64,000 nucleotides of DNA from Gemmatimonadota bacterium (lineage in GTDB: Bacteria; Gemmatimonadota; Gemmatimonadetes; Gemmatimonadales; Gemmatimonadaceae). Numbering within the stretch: the first letter of the stretch is position 1; every line of letters starts with the position of its first letter. Shown here in pieces: positions 22,678 through 28,398 of the stretch. Made by a program: the position numbers and the translations under genes. The notes beneath the pieces are model-generated. The model had not been told where the DNA came from, made no database searches, and saw only the letters and a program-made list of their open reading frames with translations. The stretch covers positions 248,001-312,000 of the forward strand of contig JAQBQB010000028.1 in the NCBI GenBank assembly GCA_028287235.1. The letters are read 5' to 3'.

Positions 22678-24555
22678 TTGTCCCGTATTGCCCTCGCTTT
22701 CGCCCTCGGCGCGTGCGTCGCCGCGACCACCGCGACCGCTGCGACCGCCGCGGCCCAGACCAAGTCCGCCTCCACCAAGCCGGTCTGGCCGGACGAAGGC
22801 CCTCGCACCTGGGCGCCGCGCCCGACCGTGTCAGCCATCACGGCGAACGATCTGCGCACGCGGCTGTATCAGTTCGCCGACGACTCGATGATGGGCCGCC
22901 GCATCGGCGAGCTGGGGAACTACAAGGGAACGGAGTACATCGCGCGCGAGTTCAAGCGACTCGGGCTCAAGCCGGCGGGCGACAACGGCACGTACTTCCA
23001 GAACCTCGACTACGGCCCAATGGGCTTCGACAGCACGACGTCGAGGCTCGTGGCCGGCAGCTCGGCGCTGGGCGCCCGCACGGACTGGGTACCCATCGCG
23101 CCCACGGCGACGAACGGCATTGGCGCGCAGAGCGACATCGGCAACGCACCGACCGTCTTCGCCGGCCGTTGGGGAGACACGACGGTCGCGCTCGATCCGG
23201 CCGCGTTCCGCGGCAAGGTTGCGGTATTCACGGCGACGCCGGCCGCAGCGGGACTTGCGGCGGCCGGCCGTGGTGCGGCGGCGCTACTGAGCTGCGCCGA
23301 CGTGCCCGATAAGTTCGGCGCCGCCGCGGCGGCGAAGGTCGAAGCGGCCGCGCGTGCCGACAGCGCCGCGGGTCGCGGCGGCCGTGGAGGCGGCGGTCGT
23401 GGCGGGGTGGGTGGAACGCGGGACAGCCGCGCGCAGCGCGCCGGCGCCGTGAGTGTGCTGCTCATCGTGCCGTTGGACTCGGTGCCGCGCGCCACGGTGA
23501 ACGGCGCGTTCACCAGCCGTTCGGGCATGAAGCTCGCCGCGGCCCAGGGTGCGCTGCCCGGCGCGGCGATCTCGCGCTCCGCGGCCGCCACGCTCTTCGG
23601 CAAACCCGTGGACCAGCTCACGGTGGGCGCGGCCGGACAACCGGTGACGGAACATTGGAGCTACGACTGGCACATGTCGGCCACGCCGGGGCGCAACGTC
23701 ATCGCCATCCTGCCCGGCTCCGACCCGTCACGCGCCGCGGAATACGTGCTCGTTGGCGCGCACAACGATCACATCGGCGTGAACACCGCGGCGGTCGACC
23801 ATGATTCGCTCCGCGCCGTGAACACCGTCACGCGCAAGCAGGGCGGCAACGATCCCGCCTGCAAGCCGACGCCGGAACAACAGCATCAGATCGACTCGCT
23901 CATCGCTCGCGCCCGCAGCATTCGCCCGCCGCGCCGCGACTCGATCATGAACGGCGCCGACGACGACGGCTCGGGCACCGTGGTCCTGTTAGAGATCGCT
24001 GAAAAATTCGTCGGCGAGAAGCCGGCGCGCTCGATCATCTTCGTGTCGCACGAAGGCGAAGAGTCGGGACTGCTCGGCTCGAAGTGGTTCACCGACCACC
24101 CCACCGTGCCGCTCGCTTCGATCGTTGCCGCGCACAACATGGACATGGTCGGCAAGGGCCGCGTGGACCAGGTGAAGTTCGGCGGACCCACGCAGATCCA
24201 ATCCCTCGGGTCGCGCCGCTTGTCGCGCGAATTCGGCGACATCATCGATTCCGTCAACGCCACGCGCACCGAGACGATGGCGATCGACAAGACCTGGGAC
24301 GTGTTCGCGAATCCGATGAACCGCTTCTGCCGCAGCGACCAAGTGAACTACGTGCACCACGACGTGCCGGTGACCTATTTCTCGACCGGCTACGCCCAGG
24401 ACTATCATCAGGCGACCGACGAGCCACAGTACATCGAGTACGAGCACGCCGCGCGCGTCGGGCGGTTCATTCACGACGTCATGTTGGCGGTTGCGAACCG
24501 GAAGGACAAACCGGCGATCGCCGGTGCGGATCCGGCGTACCCGGCTTGCCGGTAA
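22678..24555 (+). CDS. Exported M28 family zinc peptidase
   Basis: 625 residues from TTG 22678, with AGGAG seven bases upstream and a signal peptide ending near AAAQT. The M28 metal and catalytic residues are all visible: VGAHNDHIG (HxD), NGADDDGSGT (bridging Asp), FVSHEGEESGLLGS (catalytic Glu pair), NMDMVG, and DYHQATDE near the end. A Gly/Arg-rich insert (about residues 228-252) splits the segment between the start of the chain and the catalytic half. The family comprises aminopeptidases and carboxypeptidases that process peptides outside the cytoplasm. It is divergent from the amidohydrolase, and a strong hairpin follows the stop. Confidence 0.93.
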   Translation: MSRIALAFALGACVAATTATAATAAAQTKSASTKPVWPDEGPRTWAPRPTVSAITANDLRTRLYQFADDSMMGRRIGELGNYKGTEYIAREFKRLGLKPAGDNGTYFQNLDYGPMGFDSTTSRLVAGSSALGARTDWVPIAPTATNGIGAQSDIGNAPTVFAGRWGDTTVALDPAAFRGKVAVFTATPAAAGLAAAGRGAAALLSCADVPDKFGAAAAAKVEAAARADSAAGRGGRGGGGRGGVGGTRDSRAQRAGAVSVLLIVPLDSVPRATVNGAFTSRSGMKLAAAQGALPGAAISRSAAATLFGKPVDQLTVGAAGQPVTEHWSYDWHMSATPGRNVIAILPGSDPSRAAEYVLVGAHNDHIGVNTAAVDHDSLRAVNTVTRKQGGNDPACKPTPEQQHQIDSLIARARSIRPPRRDSIMNGADDDGSGTVVLLEIAEKFVGEKPARSIIFVSHEGEESGLLGSKWFTDHPTVPLASIVAAHNMDMVGKGRVDQVKFGGPTQIQSLGSRRLSREFGDIIDSVNATRTETMAIDKTWDVFANPMNRFCRSDQVNYVHHDVPVTYFSTGYAQDYHQATDEPQYIEYEHAARVGRFIHDVMLAVANRKDKPAIAGADPAYPACR

Positions 24556-25161: not shown

Positions 25162-25190
25162 TTGACCGCCATCTGCGCCGGCGCTAACGT
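25162..25190 (+). promoter_or_regulatory. Sigma-70-type promoter for the ankyrin-like gene
   Basis: TTGACC (25162-25167) and TAACGT (25185-25190) are separated by exactly 17 bases. Transcription would start near 25197, leaving a leader of about 134 nt before ATG 25331, unusually long for this window. Confidence 0.6.
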
Positions 25191-25276
25191 CGGCTCCTGG
25201 CGTGCAGGACGCCCCCCGTCCGCGGACAGGACCGAGTCCACCTGATCGATACGTAGGCACGACCGGTTCTCACGAA

Positions 25277-25324
25277 CCTCCTTTCGCCCGACGCCAGCGG
25301 ACCCCGGGCATTACGCAAAGGAGG
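25277..25324 (+). promoter_or_regulatory. Sequestered Shine-Dalgarno in the leader of the ankyrin-like gene
   Basis: The ribosome site AAAGGAGG (25317-25324), a perfect match to the 16S tail, is exactly complementary to CCTCCTTT at 25277-25284, with 32 nt between. Pairing would hide the ribosome site. Upstream, 25205-25245 contains several GGAC/GTCC blocks that can pair with one another, so alternative folds are possible. This layout fits a translational switch: riboswitch, RNA thermometer or protein-bound leader. I do not recognise a known riboswitch class. Confidence 0.5.
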
Positions 25325-25330
25325 TCTCGC

Positions 25331-26602
25331 ATGCCCGACCGTCATCTCGGCGTTCGCCCCGATCTCGAGCAGCTCCGGCACCAAGCGAAGGATCTGCTTC
25401 GCCAGATCCGGCGCGGCGAACCAGCCGCCGTCGCAGCGCTCGACAAACACCATCCCGACGCGATCGATCCGGCGCGCGCGAAGCTCGCCGCCGCTCAGCT
25501 CGTGCTCGCGCGCAGCTACGGAGTGCCGAGCTGGCCGCGCATCGTGCATGCCTGCAAGCTGATCGACGCGATCTGGGAAGACGACGTCCACGCGGTACGC
25601 ACGCTCGTCACGAAGCACCCGAACCTGATCCACGAGAACGCGAGCGGCACCGAGCAATCCAACTGGGGACCGCCGATGAGCTACGCGGCGAATCTCGGAC
25701 GCGACGCGATCATCGAGCTGCTGCGCGGCCTCGGCGCCACCGATTTCGAGCACGCCGTGGGCCGTGCGGCGCTGCAGGGCCGCATTGGCACCGCGCGAGA
25801 GTTGCACGCCATGATGGGCTCACCTCGCCTTCCCGCGAACTCGCTCGGCGGGCCGGCGTACACGCTCAGCGCGTCGGGTACCGCGCTCATGTTGGAGCTT
25901 GGCGCCCCGGTGCTCGATGACGACGGCAAGTCGATCGCGCCGGTCGCCGTCGTGCTCGAGACCGATGGCCGCAAGCCGCGGGAGAAGCACGAGATCCTCG
26001 AGATGTACGCGGCCCGCGGAGTCCCCCTTCCCGACACGTCCGTCATGGCGCTCCACCGCGGCCGCATCGACCTGCTCGAGGAGCATCTGCGCCGCGACCC
26101 CTCTCTCCTCCGCCGCACCTTCACGCACGAGGAGATTTTTCCGCCGGAGTGGGGCTGCCGCGCCGAAGTGGAAACGCAGGGCACGCCGCTCGCGGGCGCG
26201 ACCCTGCTGCACATCGCAATCGACTACGATGAATTGGAGATTGCCCGCTGGCTGCTGGACCGCGGCATGGACGTGGACACGCCAGCCGCCGTCGACGCGC
26301 GCGGCTTCGGTGGTCACACCGCGTTATTCGGCGCCGTCGTGTCGTACGCCCATTTCTGGATGAATTACGGCGGCAAGCCTCAGGTCGCGCCCTTTGCGGA
26401 GCTATTGCTCGACCACGGCGCCAACCCGAATGTGCGAGCGTCGTTGCGGAAGTCGCTCGCCCGCGACGGCGACCGCACCGTCCACGAGTATCGCGACGTG
26501 ACACCGCTGTCGTGGGGGCGGCTGTTCTACGACAGGCTCCTGGTCAATGAGGCGGCGATGCAGCTCATCGCCGAGCGGGGTGGGCGCGACGGCCGGACAT
26601 AG
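25331..26602 (+). CDS. Ankyrin-repeat-like protein
   Basis: 423 residues, start fixed by AAAGGAGG six bases before ATG 25331. Residues about 10-80 are a basic helical N-terminal domain (LEQLRHQAKDLLRQIRRGE). Then come ankyrin-like repeats: DDVHAVRTLVTKHPNLI, PMSYAANLGRDAIIELLRGLGA, TLLHIAIDYDELEIARWLLDRG, FAELLLDHGANPN and TPLSWGRLF. There is no signal peptide, so it is a cytoplasmic protein-protein interaction factor. Partner and role are unknown. It is preceded by a long structured leader with its own promoter, and followed after 32 nt by the second M28 peptidase. Confidence 0.85.
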   Translation: MPDRHLGVRPDLEQLRHQAKDLLRQIRRGEPAAVAALDKHHPDAIDPARAKLAAAQLVLARSYGVPSWPRIVHACKLIDAIWEDDVHAVRTLVTKHPNLIHENASGTEQSNWGPPMSYAANLGRDAIIELLRGLGATDFEHAVGRAALQGRIGTARELHAMMGSPRLPANSLGGPAYTLSASGTALMLELGAPVLDDDGKSIAPVAVVLETDGRKPREKHEILEMYAARGVPLPDTSVMALHRGRIDLLEEHLRRDPSLLRRTFTHEEIFPPEWGCRAEVETQGTPLAGATLLHIAIDYDELEIARWLLDRGMDVDTPAAVDARGFGGHTALFGAVVSYAHFWMNYGGKPQVAPFAELLLDHGANPNVRASLRKSLARDGDRTVHEYRDVTPLSWGRLFYDRLLVNEAAMQLIAERGGRDGRT

Positions 26603-26634: not shown

Positions 26635-28398
26635 ATGTCAACACTCCGCACCCTCTCCGCATTCGGTGTCCTGACGCTGACCGCCGCGGCCTCCGCGGGC
26701 GCCCAGCAGTCGAGCGACCCAACCGTTCAGCGCATTTTCCGCCTCGGCATGGACAGCTCGCACGTCCAGTCGCTGGCGCACACGTTGTTCGATTCGATCG
26801 GGCCGCGCCTCACCGGCAGCCCGGGCCTTCGCTCGGCCAGCGACTGGGTCATCAAGACCTATCAGTCGTGGGGCGTCGACGCGAAGCGCGAGCAGTACGG
26901 CACTTGGCGCGGCTGGCGGCGCGGCGTGTCGCACATCGATCTCGTGGCTCCGCGCGTTCGCTCGCTCGAGGGGCTGATGCTCGCGTGGAGTCCAGGCACG
27001 AAGGGCCAGCCGGTCACCGCACAGGCAATCGTTCTGCCGAAATTCCGCGACAGCACCGAGTTCGTGAAGTGGTTGCCGCAGGCGAAGGGCAAGATCGTGC
27101 TGCTGTCGCCCGCGTGGCCGACCTGCCGCCCGTCCGAGGACTGGATGCGCTGGTCCACCCCCGAGGCGATGCAGCGCATGGATCAGGAGATCGCCGACAT
27201 GCAGAAGGACTGGGCGGTCGATCCGGACAGCACGAAGCTCTACCGCGGCACCGGCTACGGCCTCGCGCTCGGTACGGGCACGCTCGGTACGAGGCTCGAA
27301 AAAGCGGGCGTCGCGGGCATGATCTCCTCGCGTACGAAATTGAGCGGCTTCCCCAACCCGAGCGGTGCTGACGCCGGCGGTCGCGGTGGACGGGGCGGTG
27401 GACGCGGAGGCCCTGCCGGTGGCGCGAGCGCGCGCGGCGGTGGACCGGCGGCGAGCCTTGCGACTGGAGGCCGCGGCGGAGCGAACGCGCCGCCGGGCGC
27501 CGGCGGTTGGGGCACGATCGAAGTGTTCGAAACGTACAACACCCTCGCTCCCGCGGTGACGCTGACGTGCGAGGACTACGGTCTCGTCTACCGCCTCGCC
27601 GATCACAACGAGAAGCCGATGGTCCGCCTCGACCTCGACGCCCAGCTCCTCGGCGAGCAGCCGGCGTTCAATACGATCGGCATGATCAAGGGCACCGAGA
27701 AGCCGAACGAATACGTCATGCTCTCCGCACACTTCGATTCGTGGGACGCGTCGTCTGGCGCCACCGACAACGGCACCGGCACGCTCATGGCCATGGAAGC
27801 GATGCGCATTCTCAAACAGGCGTATCCGCATCCCAAGCGCACGATCATGGTCGGACACTGGGCGAGCGAGGAGCAGGGCCTCAACGGCTCGCGCGCGTTC
27901 ACCGAAGATCATCCCGAGGTCATGAAGGGCTTGCAGGCGCTGTTCAACCAGGACAACGGCACGGGTCGCGTGCAGTCGCTGTCGGCGTCGGGCCTCACCG
28001 ACATGGGCCGCCACCTCAAGTCGTGGTACTCGCAGCTGCCGCGCTTCTACACCGACAGCATGAGCAACAATGTCGTGTCGTGGAGCTTCAACGACGTGCC
28101 GACGGGCAATCCCGGCGGTACCGACGGCGCGGTGTTCTCCTGCTACGGCACGCCGTCGTTCGGCATGGGCGCCGTGAGCTGGAACTACAGCACCTACACG
28201 TGGCACACCAACCGCGACACCTACGACAAGGTCGTGTTCGACGACTTGAAGCACAACGCAACGCTCGCGGCCGAGCTGGCGTATCTCGCGTCGGAGGATC
28301 CGGAGTTCATCTCGCGCGAGAAGTCGCCGGGCGAGTGGCCGGCCAACTGGCCGGCGAACTGCGGCAAGGCGCCGCGCAAGACGAAGCCGCGGTTGTAG
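26635..28398 (+). CDS. Exported M28 family zinc peptidase (carboxypeptidase Q-like)
   Basis: 587 residues with signal peptide ending near AGAQQ. M28 residues are complete: MLSAHFDSWDASSGATDNGTGT (HxD and bridging Asp; split MLSAHFDSW and SGATDNGTGT), WASEEQGLNGS (Glu pair), LFNQDNGTG (Asp) and YTWHTNRDTYD (His). The order and the long N-terminal protease-associated-type region resemble carboxypeptidase Q. A Gly/Arg/Ala-rich insert at about residues 243-295 lies before GTIEVFETYN. It differs strongly from the M28 enzyme at 22678, so the two are not a recent duplication. Confidence 0.93.
   Translation: MSTLRTLSAFGVLTLTAAASAGAQQSSDPTVQRIFRLGMDSSHVQSLAHTLFDSIGPRLTGSPGLRSASDWVIKTYQSWGVDAKREQYGTWRGWRRGVSHIDLVAPRVRSLEGLMLAWSPGTKGQPVTAQAIVLPKFRDSTEFVKWLPQAKGKIVLLSPAWPTCRPSEDWMRWSTPEAMQRMDQEIADMQKDWAVDPDSTKLYRGTGYGLALGTGTLGTRLEKAGVAGMISSRTKLSGFPNPSGADAGGRGGRGGGRGGPAGGASARGGGPAASLATGGRGGANAPPGAGGWGTIEVFETYNTLAPAVTLTCEDYGLVYRLADHNEKPMVRLDLDAQLLGEQPAFNTIGMIKGTEKPNEYVMLSAHFDSWDASSGATDNGTGTLMAMEAMRILKQAYPHPKRTIMVGHWASEEQGLNGSRAFTEDHPEVMKGLQALFNQDNGTGRVQSLSASGLTDMGRHLKSWYSQLPRFYTDSMSNNVVSWSFNDVPTGNPGGTDGAVFSCYGTPSFGMGAVSWNYSTYTWHTNRDTYDKVVFDDLKHNATLAAELAYLASEDPEFISREKSPGEWPANWPANCGKAPRKTKPRL

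Follow-up and report, generated by a model that had tools for sequence, protein, structure and literature searches.

Structured 5' leaders that act on translation are a known kind of control element. The S15 and S4 (alpha-operon) leaders of E. coli are autoregulatory leaders of ribosomal protein genes and contain pseudoknots, SAM-II and preQ1-II are riboswitches in which a pseudoknot sequesters the Shine-Dalgarno (SD) sequence, and ROSE and fourU elements are RNA thermometers that hold the SD in a hairpin. We compare these systems with a leader that precedes an ankyrin-repeat gene of a Gemmatimonadota bacterium; all positions refer to the 64,000 nucleotide stretch of DNA that was analyzed, here called the window. 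Like the S15 and S4 leaders, the element is a folded 5' leader, about 100-150 nt long, whose pseudoknots lie around the ribosome-binding site, and it precedes a gene for a basic, presumed RNA-binding protein. However, the proteins encoded downstream are not ribosomal (ankyrin and other C-terminal parts), one type of leader serves many proteins that share an N-terminal domain alone, and the element has no Rfam match. With SAM-II and preQ1-II it has in common a compact core and an SD occluded by a pseudoknot, but its two pseudoknots have a different layout and its regulon is set by a protein domain rather than by a pathway; here again the lack of an Rfam match sets it apart. The hairpin containing the SD resembles ROSE and fourU, whereas the long stable helix, the conserved core and the pseudoknots do not. 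The kind of element is known, while the family, the fold and the coupling to a portable N-terminal domain appear to be new. We consider positions 25197-25330 best read as the 5' leader of an uncatalogued, multi-phylum RNA family that would control translation.

Within the window, none of the 4227 models of Rfam 15 reached its gathering score over the element. With relaxed thresholds, a search of 301 nt returned only three sub-threshold chance matches, all on the opposite strand. Likewise, Rfam 15 placed nothing over the element on its own strand in 16 loci (relaxed), in 18 loci from other records and in 11 loci (again relaxed). A published description was not found in the main text of the open-access papers searched, and an earlier one may exist; the word "ankyrin" has no occurrence in the main text of PMC11109978, PMC8632094 and PMC6429828.

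Fold and conservation of the leader

The preliminary description had proposed a promoter, a leader of about 134 nt (25197-25330) and an SD that is fully paired to an upstream anti-SD. The exact complementarity of CCTCCTTT (25277-25284) and AAAGGAGG (25317-25324) is borne out by the sequence, and the helix reaches 9 bp, ACCTCCTTT (25276-25284) with AAAGGAGGT (25317-25325). The window contains the pattern CCTCCTTT-N10-40-AAAGGAGG a single time, and 100 shuffled versions lacked it. Folding of the 50-nt SD hairpin gave a predicted energy of -20.5 kcal/mol, which is somewhat unusual (z -2.34). For the 164-nt stretch 25197-25360, the nested fold is unremarkable (z -1.12; 37 of 200 shuffles were equally good); single-sequence folding is blind to pseudoknots and gives no significant result for the leader as a whole. 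That the element is more than chance is therefore concluded from comparative evidence, not from the nested fold of a single sequence.

For this comparison, covariance models were built from aligned leaders, R1 from 8 and R2 from 22 sequences, neither of which holds a pseudoknot. First MAFFT alignments had put P4 and P5 out of register, and model-fitted alignments were used instead. The whole element matches R2 with 99.9 bits and R1 with 58.8 bits at 25198-25327 on the forward strand, which carries all features described below. It starts with the P1 hairpin (25199-25213), in which GGCGT (25199-25203) pairs with ACGCC (25209-25213). The P1 loop, CAGG at 25205-25208, pairs with CCTG at 25241-25244 to form the pseudoknot PK1 (25205-25244), whose second strand lies directly 3' of the P3 hairpin (25229-25239; GGAC/GTCC with a CGA loop). 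A second pseudoknot, PK2 (25218-25302), joins GTCCGC (25218-25223) to GCGGAC (25297-25302) in the loop of P5, a helix of GCCCG (25286-25290) and CGGGC (25305-25309) that spans 25286-25309. P4 (25276-25325) is the anti-SD/SD helix itself. While P4 is backed by complementarity, covariation and folding, the other helices and both pseudoknots are backed by covariation. The further GGAC/GTCC pairing blocks of the preliminary description can now be identified as P3 (25229-25232 with 25236-25239) and as the GTCCGC strand of PK2 with its partner. A possible small hairpin, GGTTC-TCAC-GAACC at 25265-25278, overlaps the outer pairs of P4, and a similar sequence is present in some close homologues.

Covariation was assessed on 220 distinct leaders, less three with a P1 loop shorter than 4 nt for PK1 and less one truncated leader for PK2. 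Compared with re-dealt 3' letters, all four helices paired more often: P1 in 91.2% of cells against 77.4%, P3 in 98.7% against 81.1%, P4 in 90.2% against 69.8% and P5 in 97.3% against 78.1%. In the alignment of 22 sequences, covariation was 0.338 compared to 0.162 when shuffled and at most 0.121 when the partner was slid. The homologues show compensatory changes in the anti-SD helix, the support that the preliminary description had itself named. Since the helix alignments are fitted to the model, the pseudoknots, which are absent from the models, are the cleaner test. For PK2, six pairs are possible between the strand at the GUCCGC position and the P5 loop in 215 of 219 leaders. The 5' strand differs in 16 leaders and the six pairs are kept in 15 of them if G-U is allowed, a count to be read with the fact that 11 of the 16 P5 loops could also pair GUCCGC when G-U counts. 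Variants include ACCCGC/GCGGGU, GUCCAC/GUGGAC, AUCCGC/GCGGAU, ACGUGC/GCACGU, ACCUGC/GCAGGU and ACUCGC/GCGAGU. In 186 of 217 leaders PK1 is 4 bp or longer; its mean run is 4.59 bp against 3.46 after re-dealing (sd 0.06; highest of 200 re-deals 3.62), and it takes forms such as CAGG/CCUG, CGUCGGA/UCCGACG, GUUGGG/CCCAAU and GACAGG/CCUGUC. An "outer P3" pair, GG of GCGG with CC, had no two-sided changes and was replaced by the covarying PK1; the CC that PK1 uses was constrained in the models by this discarded pair. A DNA pattern scan for further loci, described below, required GTCCGCGG and GCGGAC, so that its loci are no evidence for PK2. In a pattern-independent set of 35 distinct leaders PK2 was found in all 35, and PK1 with at least 4 bp in 29 of 33. 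The shuffles ignore phylogeny and the E-values are rough.

The SD lies within P4, and the SD hairpin has a mean predicted energy of -19.1 kcal/mol over 210 leaders. An unpaired purine stretch in the core, GGnAAGG, is almost invariant. We also searched the core strand and the linker for a bistable anti-anti-SD arrangement. The core strand yielded no co-varying partner (5.32 versus 5.36 re-dealt), and the linker gave a slight excess (3.81 versus 3.67 re-dealt, sd 0.05). Judged from the sequences, the mRNA presumably begins with a conserved core built of P1, PK1 and P3, onto which the P5 loop at the tip of the SD hairpin docks via PK2. The leader is almost certainly a conserved structured RNA.

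The promoter-like elements TTGACC (25162-25167) and TAACGT (25185-25190), separated by a 17-nt spacer, are present as described earlier and predict a start at about 25197. This sigma70-like site (25162-25190) is missing from a consensus promoter scan, because it scores 8 of 12 and the scan requires 9. Among the 210 of 220 leaders with sufficient upstream sequence, a promoter-like pair scoring at least 8 was found in 112 within a 65-nt region that covers the model start and the sequence before it; a control stretch farther upstream had such a pair in 4 of 210. The -10 element ends 4-8 nt before the model start in 108 of these 112 leaders. Since promoter-like sites are located at a conserved distance 5' of P1, the mRNA probably starts at P1 and not downstream of 25284, the placement that would have counted against the preliminary description.

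Distribution of the family and the genes behind it

A match to the window protein was found in 19 of 59 genomes searched, its own genome counted. The leader is common even to homologues whose proteins are about 40% identical, so the situation that would have spoken against the preliminary description, homologous genes without a conserved leader, was not encountered. The covariance search that it had suggested revealed that the leader recurs as a large RNA family. In scans of more than 40 genomes, stricter filters were applied and the counts are lower bounds: the R2 element was detected in 76 of 179 genomes of the family Gemmatimonadaceae, in 92 of 395 genomes of the phylum sample, and in 17 of 199, 7 of 299 and 5 of 296 genomes in the phyla of genomes G445, G440 and G434, respectively. 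The 142 Gemmatimonadota matches gave 133 distinct elements after removal of 9 duplicate leaders, and the source genome holds five copies.

The DNA pattern scan of named genomes returned at least 120 stretches. R2 confirmed (E<=0.001) 37 loci among the first 80 and 20 among the remaining 40, hence 57 of 120 among the matches listed, of which 6 carry titles of Gemmatimonadetes or Gemmatimonadaceae. By record title, the other phyla are Actinomycetota, Pseudomonadota, Acidobacteriota, Verrucomicrobiota, Armatimonadota, Myxococcota (Sorangium) and Planctomycetota (Phycisphaeraceae); one further confirmed record is titled Deltaproteobacteria. With the titles grouped into phyla by us, the element occurs in at least eight bacterial phyla, Gemmatimonadota included. 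Carriers include Nonomuraea typhae, Kribbella sindirgiensis, Plastoroseomonas hellenica, Paraburkholderia solitsugae, Rudaea cellulosilytica, Billgrantia gudaonensis, a Methylosinus plasmid and Nonomuraea gerenzanensis. The record of the latter (NZ_LT559118.1, 11.85 Mb) is filed as a plasmid, and its size suggests a chromosome. A plasmid record of Gemmatirosa kalamazoonensis, a cultured organism, contains the domain at coordinates in agreement with those of the element in genome G020. The record OQ572412.1 ("UNVERIFIED: Pseudomonas phage Y11") has the element at 1076-1191 with 38.9 bits before a domain gene; bacterial contamination and real carriage are both compatible with this and cannot be told apart.

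The gene behind the leader in the window (25331-26602, forward strand) encodes an ankyrin-repeat protein of 423 aa in an open frame that starts with the ATG at 25331. Four Pfam ankyrin models score above cut-off (best PF00023, E 4e-09), and the AlphaFold model is mostly helical (pLDDT 84.0). Two different genes for M28-family peptidases flank it on the same strand (22678-24555 and 26635-28398). Residues 1-80 (25331-25570) form a basic, helical N-terminal domain that is coupled to the leader across phyla: a domain of this kind, about 75 residues long, begins almost every gene behind the element. A profile of the domain matches in frame directly after 129 of 133 distinct Gemmatimonadota elements, with the profile built from Gemmatimonadota proteins of these same genes. 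The domain also follows 49 of 53 cross-record elements and all 35 elements of the pattern-independent set. The four Gemmatimonadota elements that lack it look decayed or deleted, and one of these precedes an amidohydrolase-like frame. Among the four cross-record elements that lack it, one is cut by a contig end, two have broken frames and one is without an in-register SD. Conversely, all 26 domain genes detected in six Gemmatimonadota genomes have a leader, as do all 27 in 14 other genomes that were picked for holding at least one element. The latter comprise 23 full forms, of which two match weakly (35.7 and 22.8 bits), and 4 shortened cores. In total, all 53 detected domain genes of 20 genomes carry a leader, which in four genes of glyoxalase type is the shortened core.

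A survey of C-terminal parts with Pfam, using 64 representatives chosen from 118 and in addition 43 of 45 proteins, revealed mostly ankyrin repeats (a single model matched up to 55 of the 64 and up to 38 of the 43). Leucine-rich repeat (LRR), glyoxalase, Clp_N, beta-lactamase, methyltransferase, Imm1 and DUF1835 parts were also found, which rules out ankyrin genes as the only targets. Common to all controlled genes is the N-terminal domain alone. Its mean pI is 9.6 and 9.4 in two sets, compared to 5.8 and 5.6 for the rest of the protein, and the domain is more positively charged than the remainder in 61 of 64 and in 42 of 42 proteins, as expected for a candidate RNA binder. The domain is predicted to be helical (pLDDT 92.7). 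A PDB fold search with it gave no match at E<=0.001, which in itself does not make the fold new, and the best hit of a PDB sequence search (E 0.022, a chain named JUBO2) is unreliable. PF20066 (Glyoxalase_8) matched 7 of 19 N-terminal domains weakly (best E 8.6e-6), a match limited to the N-terminal helical part that was tested; the window's own domain had no Pfam match at E<=0.1.

Glyoxalase-type genes that begin with this N-terminal domain lack the SD hairpin, yet they carry the motif GUAGG-GCGC ... GGGCnnnGCCC-RCCUAC, which corresponds to the P1 loop, PK1 and P3. This shortened core was read by eye on nine loci, without detection by R2, and lies there upstream of VOC/glyoxalase-type frames. 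Carriers are genomes or records of Plastoroseomonas, Fimbriimonas, Kribbella, Acidobacteriota relatives, Phyllobacterium, Rhizobium and Sinorhizobium. A small extra hairpin is frequent in the shortened cores. In several of these loci the strand just 5' of the AUG (e.g., CGCGCCC) can pair with GGGCGCG of the core, and the shortened core may represent a second expression platform of the same RNA.

Proposed autoregulation and competing explanations

An RNA element that occludes the SD and had escaped recognition, as proposed in the preliminary description, is supported by the conservation, by the compensatory changes in the anti-SD helix and by the missing Rfam match. The leader very probably acts on translation. 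Actual switching of the ankyrin gene, together with its trigger, is a step beyond SD occlusion that we infer. In the folded state the SD would be unreachable for the 30S subunit and, hence, the gene would be repressed. The regulator would be the basic helical N-terminal domain common to the controlled proteins: newly made domain would bind the core and stabilize PK2 and the SD hairpin. This would result in negative autoregulation, as in ribosomal-protein leaders, and the coupling to a basic domain indeed places the leader next to the gene of a potential binder. We assign a probability of about one half to autoregulation by the N-terminal domain, and likewise to the whole chain from a translational control leader to the domain as its regulator. 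Several observations speak against it. Searches of PDB and Pfam revealed no relative of known function for the domain, and a basic domain may bind another partner. The coupling could reflect co-inheritance of the 5' half of the gene, and the SD hairpin looks stable, by its predicted energy, even without any factor. Furthermore, the core without SD hairpin before glyoxalase-type genes suits an aptamer-like core equally well.

The latter point leads to the main rival, a ligand riboswitch, in which P1, PK1 and P3 would be the aptamer for an ion or small molecule, the expression platform would consist of PK2 and the SD hairpin, and the domain would sense or handle the same ligand. A conserved, aptamer-like core with covarying helices is indeed present; it is compact, contains two pseudoknots and the almost invariant unpaired GGnAAGG, and recurs before glyoxalase-type genes with another start-site arrangement, like aptamers with different platforms. 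The controlled proteins, however, have no common known metabolic role and share the N-terminal domain alone, and the core strand offers no co-varying alternative partner for the anti-SD, with the linker giving the slight excess noted above. We regard a riboswitch as possible but rather unlikely. A hairpin that merely sets a low, constant level of translation or shields the 5' end of the mRNA, with leader and domain co-duplicated as the 5' half of the gene, would agree with up to five copies per genome in the scan of the family, with a single 5' unit of leader and domain before varied C-terminal parts, and with the high predicted stability of the SD hairpin. A separate core whose two pseudoknots covary and persist across phyla would be superfluous for such a passive brake, which appears improbable.

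An RNA thermometer, in which warming melts the SD hairpin, would explain the paired SD, but P4 is 9 bp long and the hairpin, far from marginal stability at 37°C (predicted -20.5 kcal/mol), is still predicted at -15.0 kcal/mol at 50°C and -11.1 kcal/mol at 60°C. In addition, known thermometers are simple imperfect hairpins, unlike the GC-rich pseudoknotted core found here, and we consider this reading very unlikely. Chance complementarity without function would fit the nested fold of the whole leader, which taken alone is not unusual (z -1.12). It is opposed by all comparative evidence, including the compensatory changes, and can be regarded as practically negligible.

As an extension of autoregulation by the domain, this domain and the RNA core might together constitute a single portable autoregulatory module, each contributing one half; we regard this tentative idea as somewhat less likely than not. 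The domain would then be a protein tag that recognizes the 5' end of its own mRNA, and the module would have been placed, with interchangeable expression platforms, before many unrelated C-terminal effectors, among them ankyrin, LRR, glyoxalase, beta-lactamase and methyltransferase parts, in no fewer than eight phyla.

Given its strong conservation, its two covarying pseudoknots and its occurrence in no fewer than eight phyla, the element is a candidate for a new Rfam class and a new orphan regulator. Because nearly every copy is coupled to the same unnamed domain, binding of this domain to the RNA offers a direct test of the trigger. Should the domain not be the regulator, the leader would be an orphan riboswitch whose regulon is already defined. 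If the domain does act as the regulator, the family would represent a portable autoregulation module for otherwise unrelated proteins, and it would provide a handle on the role of bacterial ankyrin proteins.
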